A DNA stretch of 64,000 bases from Spirosoma fluviale (lineage in GTDB: Bacteria > Bacteroidota > Bacteroidia > Cytophagales > Spirosomataceae): contig NZ_OCNH01000002.1 in the NCBI RefSeq assembly GCF_900230225.1, positions 1,150,793 through 1,214,792 on the forward strand. Direction: 5' to 3'. The notes beneath the pieces were generated by a model that was not told where the DNA came from, ran no database searches, and saw only the letters and a list, made by a program, of their open reading frames with translations. Made by a program: the position numbers and the translations under genes. How positions within the stretch are numbered: position 1 is the stretch's first letter; every line of letters begins with the position of its first letter. This document shows, one piece after another, positions 24,892-27,310 of this stretch.

Positions 24892-26334
24892 ATGAATCGT
24901 CGTACGTTTATCAAGCAATCAGCCGGGGCAAGCGCTGGCCTGATGGTGGGTCAGTCCCTATGGGCAGCGCCAGCCGCCGACTTCCCCGTTGTGCGGACAG
25001 CCGCAGCCCAACGCAATTTCACCAGCTCGGCCGTTGAGCAGACCATCCAGCGAATGCACAAAACCATTCGCGACCCGGAACTGGCCTGGCTTTTCGAGAA
25101 CTGCTTCCCCAACACCCTTGATACCACCGTGCAGGTGAGTACCGGCAATGGTCAGCCTGATACGTTTGTCATTACCGGCGACATCGACGCCATGTGGCTG
25201 CGCGATAGTACGGCGCAGGTGTGGCCTTATTTGCCACTCATTAAGCAGGATAAGCCCTTACAGCAGTTAATTGCGGGCGTTATTCGCCGGCAATCCCTGT
25301 GCATTCGGCGCGATCCGTACGCCAACGCCTTTTACGCCGATGCCAATAAAGAGGGCGAATGGAAGAAAGACGTAACGGCCATGAAACCCGGTCTGCACGA
25401 ACGCAAGTGGGAACTCGATTCGCTTTGCTACGCCATCCGGCTGGGGTATCACTACTGGAAAACAACCGGCGATACCAGCCCATTCGATGCCGACTGGCTA
25501 CAGGCCATGCAACTCGTTTTGCAAACCTGCCGGGAGCAGCAACGTAAAACCGGTCGCGGACCTTATAAATTCAGCCGCGAAACGTCCTGGTCGACGGATA
25601 CCGTGCCGGGCGATGGCTACGGGAATCCAACGCGCCCCATTGGATTGATCAACAGCATCTTCCGTCCATCCGACGATGCAACGGTTTTTCCGTTTTATGT
25701 ACCCTCGAACTGGTTTGCGGTAGTATCGCTTCGGCAACTGGCTACGATGGTCGAACAGATCAAACCGACTGCAACGGCTGCCGGGACCGCCTTATCGGCT
25801 GATTGCCGCGCCCTGGCCGATGAGGTGGAGCGGGCGCTGAAACAATACGCCATTTATACGCACCCTAAGTACGGGAAAATGTATGCTATGGAAGTGGACG
25901 GGTACGGCAATCACCTGCTTCAGGACGACGCTAACGTGCCGAACCTACTGGCTCTGCCGTATCTGGGTGCTATGCCTGCCAGCGATCCGATCTATAAAAA
26001 TACCCGTCGCTTTGTGCTCAGTCCGGACAATCCTTATTTCTTCAAAGGAAAAGCGGCCGAAGGCGTCGGCAGTCCGCACACGCTGGTCAATAACATCTGG
26101 ACCATGAGCCTGACCATGCGCGCTCTTACGTCTACCGACGATCAGGAGATTTTGGCGCAGCTTCGTCTGCTGAAGAAAACCCATGCCGGAACGGGCTTCA
26201 TGCATGAATCATTCAACCAGGACGACCCGGCCAAGTTTACCCGAAAGTGGTTCGCCTGGGCCAACACCCTCTTCGGCGAACTGATCCTGAAAGTCGCCAA
26301 CGAGCGCCCGCAATTGTTGAGCAAAGTTCTGTAA
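24892..26334 (+). CDS. GH125 exo-alpha-1,6-mannosidase, Tat-exported
   Basis: The start is chosen at MNRRTFIKQSAGASAGLMVG, a textbook Tat signal; the frame is open further upstream but those codons look random. The 480-residue protein matches the metal-independent GH125 alpha-mannosidases: FVITGDIDAMWLRDS near residue 95, RRDPYANAFYADAN, ERKWELDSLCYAIRLGY, and W-S-T-D and PSDDATVFPFYVPSN blocks in an (alpha/alpha)6 toroid. It should release non-reducing alpha-1,6-mannose in the periplasm. The last 24 codons are duplicated, with changes, about 830 bp downstream beyond a toxin-antitoxin pair. Confidence 0.9.
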   Translation: MNRRTFIKQSAGASAGLMVGQSLWAAPAADFPVVRTAAAQRNFTSSAVEQTIQRMHKTIRDPELAWLFENCFPNTLDTTVQVSTGNGQPDTFVITGDIDAMWLRDSTAQVWPYLPLIKQDKPLQQLIAGVIRRQSLCIRRDPYANAFYADANKEGEWKKDVTAMKPGLHERKWELDSLCYAIRLGYHYWKTTGDTSPFDADWLQAMQLVLQTCREQQRKTGRGPYKFSRETSWSTDTVPGDGYGNPTRPIGLINSIFRPSDDATVFPFYVPSNWFAVVSLRQLATMVEQIKPTATAAGTALSADCRALADEVERALKQYAIYTHPKYGKMYAMEVDGYGNHLLQDDANVPNLLALPYLGAMPASDPIYKNTRRFVLSPDNPYFFKGKAAEGVGSPHTLVNNIWTMSLTMRALTSTDDQEILAQLRLLKKTHAGTGFMHESFNQDDPAKFTRKWFAWANTLFGELILKVANERPQLLSKVL

Positions 26335-26335
26335 G
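26258..26335 (+). repeat. Direct repeat, left copy (GH125 3' end)
   Basis: These 78 bp match 27088-27165 at 72 positions (six substitutions, no gaps). The copy lies inside the GH125 coding sequence and includes its stop codon. Confidence 0.9.
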
Positions 26336-26377
26336 AGAAGGGGCAAGTGTAATAGCTTGTTATTTACAGTTGAAACT

Positions 26378-26394
26378 GTTTACTATGAGTAAAC
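26378..26394. promoter_or_regulatory. Inverted repeat upstream of higB, candidate HigA operator
   Basis: GTTTAC-TATGA-GTAAAC forms a 6-bp perfect inverted repeat 17 bp upstream of the higB start. Antitoxins with helix-turn-helix domains commonly repress their own operon from such sites. Confidence 0.5.
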
Positions 26395-26411
26395 TTTCTC
26401 TAGATTACTAA

Positions 26412-26723
26412 ATGTTTAATATCATAGCACGCCGTATGTTACTTGACTATTGTCGGTTGTATCCTCAGGCGTCCAGTGCCTTAAAACAATGGTATGCTGA
26501 ATTGTACGAGCAGGAGTTTGCGAATTTTAATGAACTAAAGGCAACTTACGGAAACGCGAGTGTTGTAGCTGATGATAGGGTTGTGTTTAATATAATGGGT
26601 AACAAGTATCGACTGGTTGTCCGGATGGTATTCGCGTTTAAGACAATTCAGATTAAATGGTTTGGTACTCATGCTGAATACGATAAAATTGATGTAGCGA
26701 CTGTACAATACGAAAGACCATGA
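26412..26723 (+). CDS. higB: HigB-type mRNA interferase toxin
   Basis: This 103-residue protein has the HigB-toxin layout: MFNIIARRMLLDYCRLYPQA at the start, ALKQWYAEL, a central VVFNIMGNKYRLVVRMVF strand pair and a C-terminal IQIKWFGTHAEYDKID. HigB toxins of the RelE superfamily cleave mRNA on translating ribosomes. The stop overlaps the start of the next gene by 4 bp (ATGA), so toxin and antitoxin are translationally coupled, with the toxin first as usual for higBA. The base composition is more AT-rich than in the flanking GH125 gene. Confidence 0.88.
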   Translation: MFNIIARRMLLDYCRLYPQASSALKQWYAELYEQEFANFNELKATYGNASVVADDRVVFNIMGNKYRLVVRMVFAFKTIQIKWFGTHAEYDKIDVATVQYERP

Positions 26724-27076
26724 CACTTAAGACGATAAAGAACGAACAGGAATACGAGGAGTTAATGGCGTGGGTTGACGAACAGTTTGACAAAAAAGTC
26801 CAGCCAGATAGCCCTGTAGGGGAGACCTTACAGGTAGCGCTCCTGCTGATAAAGTCGTACGAAGATGAACATTATCCTATTCCTGCTCCTGACCCCATTG
26901 ACGCCATTCGTTTAAAAATGGCTGAAAATGGCTATAAGAATAAGGACTTTGTTGGTAAGCTAGGTAGCAAAAGTTACGTTTCTGCGGTATTAAACAAACG
27001 CAAGCCGCTGACGCTCGAAATGGCTAAATTCTTTCACAAAGAATTAGGGATACCCGCCGGGGTTCTGCTTGCCTAA
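26720..27076 (+). CDS. higA: HigA-type antitoxin with C-terminal helix-turn-helix
   Basis: This 118-residue partner of HigB has an N-terminal helical region (NEQEYEELMAWVDEQFDK), a middle stretch with Pro-rich linker (YPIPAPDPIDAIRLKM), and a C-terminal XRE-like helix-turn-helix (NKDFVGKLGSKSYVSAVLNK, then LTLEMAKFFHKELGIPAGVLL). It should bind and neutralise HigB and repress the operon through a palindrome upstream of higB. The gene ends 13 bp before the duplicated GH125 tail. Confidence 0.88.
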   Translation: MTLKTIKNEQEYEELMAWVDEQFDKKVQPDSPVGETLQVALLLIKSYEDEHYPIPAPDPIDAIRLKMAENGYKNKDFVGKLGSKSYVSAVLNKRKPLTLEMAKFFHKELGIPAGVLLA

Positions 27077-27087
27077 ATGAGTGAATA

Positions 27088-27165
27088 GGGCCAACACCCT
27101 CTTCGGCGAACTAGTCCTGAAAGTCGCCAACGAGCGCCCGCATCTGTTGAGCAAAGTGGTGTAAG
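27088..27165 (+). repeat. Direct repeat, right copy beyond higBA
   Basis: This is the second copy of the 78-bp GH125 3' end, exactly 830 bp from the first. All six substitutions fall in three pairs (27113-27114, 27143-27144, 27158-27159). Confidence 0.9.
27090..27164 (+). pseudogene. Orphan 3' fragment of a GH125 gene
   Basis: The fragment encodes the same 24-residue C-terminus as the intact GH125 gene, in one open frame to TAA at 27162-27164. The changes are Ile to Val, Gln to His and the final Leu to Val. Because the changes are conservative and the frame is intact, it looks like the tail of a diverged GH125 allele rather than a randomly decaying copy. Confidence 0.75.
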
Positions 27166-27273
27166 TGAATACAGGCTGAGTAATTTCCGATGACAATGCG
27201 ATTAAATTACTCATGGATGAATGAGTAGTATTGCATTAGTACGCAAGGAACGATATTTTTAGACGTTAACTAA

Positions 27274-27310
27274 AAGGGTTATGTATCGAACATACATAAC
27301 CCTTATTTTT
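27274..27310 (+). terminator. Intrinsic terminator downstream of the higBA insertion
   Basis: AAGGGTTATGTAT (27274-27286) pairs with 27292-27304 around CGAAC and is followed by ATTTTT. It probably ended the original GH125 transcript and now ends the higBA transcript. Confidence 0.75.

Follow-up and report, generated by a model that had tools for sequence, protein, structure and literature searches.

A higBA toxin-antitoxin pair between two imperfect copies of a GH125 gene end in Spirosoma fluviale, one instance of a recurrent footprint around toxin-antitoxin genes

In contig NZ_OCNH01000002.1 of Spirosoma fluviale (RefSeq assembly GCF_900230225.1), a HigBA toxin-antitoxin (TA) pair lies behind a GH125 alpha-mannosidase gene, and the end of this gene recurs on the far side of the pair. 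The window analysed here is a 64-kb stretch of that contig (positions 1,150,793 to 1,214,792 of the forward strand), and all coordinates below count from its first letter. The direct repeat 26258-26339 / 27088-27169 is the sole repeat of such kind across the window under the limits used (length of 50 bp or more, gap 200-3000 bp, E 1e-5, masking of low-complexity sequence). Other loci and genomes are referred to by L and G numbers, the genome of the window being G000. The locus comprises the following features, with lengths of proteins in amino acids (aa).

24892..26334, + strand: GH125 alpha-mannosidase gene, the host gene, intact (Pfam PF06824, E 7.8e-172), its start codon chosen among in-frame ATGs
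26258..26339, + strand: left, gene-attached repeat copy, the last 77 bp of GH125 with its stop, plus 5 bp
26340..26411, + strand: left edge of the insert with the promoter region, assigned from the sequence
26412..26723, + strand: higB, RelE-like toxin, 103 aa (Pfam HigB_toxin, E 1.4e-28; PDB HigB chains, E 7e-5; PADLOC PD-Lambda-2_A)
26720..27076, + strand: higA, antitoxin, 118 aa, with a 4-bp overlap with higB (PDB HigA chains, E 8e-4; PADLOC PD-Lambda-2_B)
27080..27087, unstranded: AGTGAATA, the first of two 8-bp repeats bordering the orphan tail, the second being at 27164-27171
27088..27169, + strand: right, orphan repeat copy, a GH125 tail that keeps frame and stop and continues into the native downstream DNA
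27274..27304, unstranded: terminator-like palindrome, part of the native downstream DNA and spanned by the aligned stretch in the relatives' loci L003 and L004

The two repeat copies, 82 nt long and offset by 830 bp, match at 75 of 82 bases (91%). Over the 77 nt that end with the GH125 stop they show six base differences, which fall as three adjacent pairs (26283-26284, 26313-26314 and 26328-26329 in the left copy), each straddling a codon boundary, and a seventh difference follows the stop. The encoded changes are I/V, Q/H and L/V, the remaining three coding differences are silent, and both tails retain reading frame and stop. Three adjacent pairs among six random sites in 75 nt have a probability of 3e-4, in a test applied post hoc. 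This comparison bears out an earlier note on the same DNA, made from its letters, which had described a repeated GH125 end with six substitutions in three adjacent pairs and an intact frame; its spacing of 830 bp also stands, but not its length of 78 bp, the actual repeat being 82 nt with 77 up to the stop. The palindrome that it had taken for a terminator downstream of the right copy is present at 27274-27304.

Among 59 genomes searched, the window's own included, 26 gave a GH125 match, which was near full length in 24 of the 58 others; the second match in the own genome is the orphan tail, and a second tail match is absent from all 25 other genomes with a GH125 match. In the loci L003 (G026, GH125 97% at the aa level) and L004 (G035, 98%), a single tail leads straight into the DNA found downstream of the right copy in the window, a comparison that is between species, not strains. 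Relative to its two closest relatives, the window's genome therefore carries higBA and one tail as extra DNA. Given that L003 and L004 carry one tail joined directly to the downstream DNA, the window higBA is, as read from the sequences, an insertion polymorphism rather than what is left of a second GH125 gene. The same sites, palindrome included, uphold the proposal of the earlier note that higBA was inserted with GH125 left intact; two ancestral tandem GH125 genes, which the earlier note had named as the finding that would turn the insertion into a deletion scar, are argued against by these single-tailed relatives and by the lack of a second tail match in the 25 other genomes. Absence in relatives alone dates nothing, because recombination between the tails could also yield an empty site.

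Open reading frames of at least 60 aa between the repeats are limited to higB, higA and one antisense frame, and none of those inside the insert is a recombinase or integrase. Transposon or insertion sequence features are likewise missing, with no inverted repeat at the unit ends and no further reading frame of note. The insert has no match to plasmids and phages, and transport on a known plasmid or phage was dropped on this ground. Upstream of higB, the palindrome GTTTAC-TATGA-GTAAAC at 26378-26394 is likely a HigBA operator, and DNA similarity to the higBA locus of Larkinella humicola (L060) runs from 26377 to 27076. By sequence the pair resembles Type II HigBA systems, with a likewise toxin-first operon, a HigB_toxin domain and a HigA relative; higA had no Pfam match, and the window proteins themselves show nothing unusual. 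PADLOC labels HigB and HigA (26412-27076) as PD-Lambda-2 A and B, and because of these labels the pair may act in phage defence.

The footprint, and not the proteins, is what makes the locus of interest, and the window repeat is one instance of a recurrent pattern. A total of 162 higB loci were collected, of which 147 with a higA frame and enough flank were usable (11 were dropped for lack of a recognised higA frame and 4 for less than 300 bp of flank). An enclosing repeat was defined for higBA as a direct repeat 50 bp or longer with E 1e-6 within 400 bp on each side of the pair, and for other families with limits of 40 bp and E 1e-4. Long imperfect direct repeats enclose 11/147 higBA loci vs 12/6,728 same-size control windows in those loci, a control rate that is descriptive because the control windows overlap. 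After removal of 10 loci with identical higBA, the upstream and downstream flanks align with a score of at least 50 in 14/137 loci and in 0/1,085 mismatched flank pairs; one further locus scored 35, and the remainder lie within the control range. The full counts have to be reduced, as four of the 11 loci (L064, L066, L080 and L091) have repeats in more than two copies per locus and L148 looks, in our judgement, like a dispersed repeat. Clear host-gene pieces among the 11 are found only in L030, L086, L092 and L093, the last two being orthologous; likewise, several of the 14 flank-alignment loci are multi-copy repeats, and clear host-gene pieces are those of the window, L086 and L092/L093. The repeat of L086 is the 5' end of a gene and that of L092/L093 the 5' end of dprA (Pfam).

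Enclosing repeats are also found around other TA genes, at 8/70 ParE loci of the family (4/30 and 4/40), at 5/29 ParE loci across the phylum (one match, L430, being low-complexity) and at 2/30 HicA loci (one of them weak, at 73% identity), and at 0/30 cold-shock protein controls. The toxin was assumed to lie mid-locus in the first ParE set (30), the HicA and cold-shock sets and the phylum ParE set; short loci numbered two for ParE, one for HicA and one for cold-shock proteins in the first sets, and 7/29 in the phylum ParE set. DUF4143 ATPases were dropped as an equally enriched cargo, with an enclosing repeat at 1/30 loci only, and that one hairpin-like; for this reason the ATPase cases mentioned below (L364, L365 and one in G035) count as single examples. 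A mechanism specific to higBA is ruled out by the ParE, HicA and DUF433-DUF5615 cases, so that where the layout had been seen as a trait of higBA, its recurrence holds but its peculiarity to higBA does not.

Six of the eight ParE matches of the family look like gene 3' ends (assigned by Pfam for all but L323), and they are listed here with the HicA case from the window's own genome.

L194/L368: histidine kinase tail, ParE
L207: GNAT acetyltransferase tail, ParE
L214/L369: class-V aminotransferase tail, ParE
L318: ABC transporter tail, ParE
L337/L367: patatin-like phospholipase tail, ParE
L323: tail of an unassigned open reading frame, ParE
L293/L366 (L366 = G000:C6:109500-113500): SNF2 helicase tail, window's own genome, HicA

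In all seven the intact gene is followed by the TA genes and then by an orphan copy of 43-87 bp of the gene end. Most of these copies end at the same stop or at most two codons apart, while those of L194 diverge before the stop, and in L366 the DNA beyond the orphan is collinear with G026. The orientation of the TA genes relative to the flanking gene is variable, and repeat lengths over all cases range from 43 to over 200 bp. No 100% identical enclosing pair occurs among the higBA, ParE and HicA pairs, the best being 42/43 (family ParE), and an 8-bp repeat like AGTGAATA borders the orphan tail in none of the seven other cases compared. The patatin tail has been hit twice, by ParE in G110 and by an ATPase in G122. 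In this latter locus (L365, G122:C12:1154500-1159500), the patatin-like tail is duplicated around a lone ATPase that is DUF4143-like by eye. Besides the duplicated dprA head, L092 (311-372) and L093 (538-619) hold an extra fragment upstream that resembles the dprA interior. Repeated hairpin-like elements surround the higBA loci L066, L080, L094, L096, L109 and L064, with GCTCCCC or CCCTAACTCACTG in several; these loci may represent a different type of cassette array.

One SNF2 helicase gene of Spirosoma has a 3' end that is an insertion hot spot (L366, L364, L440, L441 and L442), mostly with the tail duplicated, and insertions of the present layout are found there in four species. This tail carries HicA, with a repeat of 59 bp, in the window's genome, a DUF4143 ATPase (Pfam, which was applied to L364 only among the hot-spot ATPases) with a 160-bp repeat in G014, and a DUF433-DUF5615 pair (Pfam), which we take to be a TA pair, in G013 (58-bp repeat) and G025 (37-bp repeat). 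This pair also stands at the helicase tail of G003, where no orphan was detected. In G035, an ATPase of similar sequence is enclosed by 81-bp repeats, which span the end of the neighbouring convergent gene. Matching single-tail sites occur in G026, G035, G008, G028, G016, G032 and G034; these include L343 and L344 for the HicA insertion, L370-L372 for L364, and L351 and L347 for the DUF433-DUF5615 insertions in G025 and G013. G013 and G025 are 75% alike over tail and DUF433-DUF5615 pair, with empty sites in G008 and G028. A hairpin element containing CGACCGTCCCGGTCGGGTGTG is dispersed in the window's genome (G000:C8:287086-287943, 363207-364716), and a hairpin like it follows the helicase gene in relatives.

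We tentatively regard homology-anchored capture, in which higBA was taken up with a GH125 tail originating in a related lineage, as the best explanation, at somewhat less than even confidence. A higBA unit of about 0.75 kb would have entered behind GH125 together with, or beside, a related-lineage tail of GH125. Foreign DNA holding the TA genes and a homologous gene stretch could anchor by homologous recombination in the gene end, with the other junction being illegitimate (homology-facilitated illegitimate recombination); alternatively, a circle of TA genes and tail could integrate by one crossover. Both routes would leave tails that differ as two alleles and are not 100% identical. Only insertions regenerating the gene end would survive selection, broken genes being selected against, and later tail-tail recombination could homogenise the copies or cleanly delete the unit, a loss against which TA addiction would select. 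Although we infer the recombination steps themselves, this model accounts for the non-identical tails, the intact gene, the lack of a recombinase, the reuse of one gene by several kinds of cargo and the preference for gene ends. The tail of the nearest relative shows six differences from the left copy vs 10 from the right, even though it is the right copy that borders on the native downstream DNA; such a pattern would result from a crossover at the far end of the tail or from the import of a locus that was duplicated beforehand. It can be speculated further that TA pairs in Bacteroidota spread recombinase-free with a conserved gene 3' end as their own integration arm, docking by homology in related species, regenerating the gene, orphaning the old tail and being freed for the next round by tail-tail recombination, a generalisation that we consider rather doubtful.

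The sequences suggest that the second tail likely came from another lineage, which is unproven, because pure decay is rejected over 12 coding pairs but a mixture of decay and silent change stands. These pairs are ungapped and were chosen, with L086, L330, L200, G013 and G025 outside the set; they hold 30.5 replacement (N) and 57.5 silent (S) differences against an all-neutral expectation of N about 65, with 0/5,000 simulations as low. For the 10 pairs with TA cargo the values are N 26.5 and S 31.5 against an expectation of 42.9, again with 0/5,000 simulations as low. The 12-pair count leans on L365 (ATPase cargo, 24 differences, 3 of them replacement), which rejects even a half-neutral model (in which half of the changes arise neutrally in the orphan and the other half are silent ones in the gene) at P 0.0008. 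The window orphan residues at changed positions are all among those found at these positions in a set of 17 relatives, for which random change gives P 0.002-0.005 (17/24 relatives were used, the more distant L020-L026 being left out). The helicase tails of G000 differ from each other at 5/37 sites and from the tail of G035 at 3 and 4, those of G013 are 1/37 sites apart vs 4-5 from G008, and the dprA copies are 90-93% alike within L092 and L093 and 76-81% between the loci. Given that these comparisons point in different ways, a source in another lineage, homogenisation and duplication within the lineage may each play a part.

Several observations weigh against capture from a related lineage. 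The half-neutral model stands for the 12 pairs (P 0.28) and fits the 10 TA pairs well (expectation N 21.4, the observed value being higher, P 0.98), and therefore the TA pairs alone do not show two functional alleles and the allele signal is weak. In the window pair, with 3 N : 3 S, neutral drift stands (P 0.22); of the statement in the earlier note that there are two alleles and not random decay, the match of the orphan residues to the relatives speaks for it and these counts do not. The near-identical helicase tails of G013 fit in-lineage duplication or homogenisation. There is no similarity drop towards the GH125 or the helicase tail to mark a crossover, and a visible footprint of this kind in the similarity profile was dropped. 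As higB stands beside GH125 in 0/24 of the relatives' loci (flanks of 1.5 kb or less), these offer no candidate donor. Capture does not account for the doublet pattern or the AGTGAATA repeat, and identical repeats may be under-represented in draft assemblies.

A close rival, which we hold to be quite possible, is insertion in place with a long target duplication, whereby break-and-fill would copy 40-200 bp of the target and the copies, identical at first, would diverge through orphan decay and partial gene conversion. This layout is described for restriction-modification genes (PMC3874152, PMC3031569, PMC1643837), and the half-neutral fit of the 10 TA pairs, the G013 tails and the greater likeness of the dprA copies within than between genomes all favour it, as does the placement, with L003 as outgroup, of about 5 changes on the window orphan branch vs 1 on the gene branch. 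Arguing in the other direction are the lack of any 100% identical enclosing pair, the rejection of half-neutral decay by L365 and the window orphan residues, which match the genus. An old insertion that was passed on vertically and lost from relatives via tail recombination is an unlikely account, and the origin of the first insertion falls outside its scope; the DUF433-DUF5615 pair at the same place in G013, G025 and G003 and the 75% likeness of G013 and G025 next to the empty G008 and G028 agree with it, but it leaves the repeats unexplained, and the window insertion is found in one genome only among those with GH125. Still less probable is site-specific integration, with gene ends serving a recombinase acting in trans as attachment sites, as at tRNA 3' ends. 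The insertions are indeed non-disruptive and often at gene 3' ends, and one helicase tail is used in several species; nevertheless, the insert holds no recombinase, repeat lengths are not constant (43 to over 200 bp), the dprA and L086 repeats derive from 5' ends, and in 43 different-gene comparisons of 10 tails the longest common word was 8 bp, a length reached in 188/200 shuffles, although a degenerate core is possible. With no end inverted repeat either, docking in the manner of tRNA-targeting elements, as the earlier note had imagined, finds no support. A scar left by deletion within a tandem gene duplication, to which the TA pair was added independently, would suit the open frame kept in both tails but is scarcely credible, given relatives that are single-tailed and joined to native downstream DNA and a layout whose recurrence at several unrelated genes would need many coincidences.

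To our knowledge, how a solitary, recombinase-less TA pair enters a chromosome is an open question. Chromosomal TA pairs are thought to move horizontally, and their fixation is, according to a review, not yet understood (PMC2654758). By titles and abstract openings, no paper on TA pairs with such an insertion mechanism was found in the open-access literature. The recurrent, non-disruptive gene-end footprint hints at how small TA genes enter genomes without breaking genes; it offers a concrete, testable entry route for TA pairs and an insertion signature that can be searched genome-wide, and conserved gene tails are suggested as landing pads for selfish genes. Unconventional circularizable structures are recombinase-free segments between long direct repeats, and the present layout could, by its sequence, likewise excise as a circle with one repeat, cargo and hosts being different. 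Homology-facilitated illegitimate recombination has been proposed for orphan immunity genes of the type VI secretion system and for orphan Rhs tips, where a module anchored in a conserved stretch similarly pushes the old 3' part downstream as an orphan (PMC5361080). The displaced part there differs in function; in the present layout it is the same gene tail that is restored, with an unrelated TA pair as cargo.

Nobusato et al. (2000) is reportedly the source for insertion of restriction-modification genes with long target duplication. Such restriction-modification units are described as flanked by long direct duplications of the target (PMC3874152, PMC3031569, PMC1643837). They share with the present cases an addictive unit that is present or absent between genomes, a single target copy in the empty allele, and long flanking repeats of variable length, of the order of 100 bp and 82 bp in the window; the cases described here differ in that the cargo consists of TA pairs, the copies differ by about 2-19% and the targets are often gene ends. 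The long target duplication of restriction-modification genes is the nearest known kind and the nearest descriptive precedent for the footprint around higBA.

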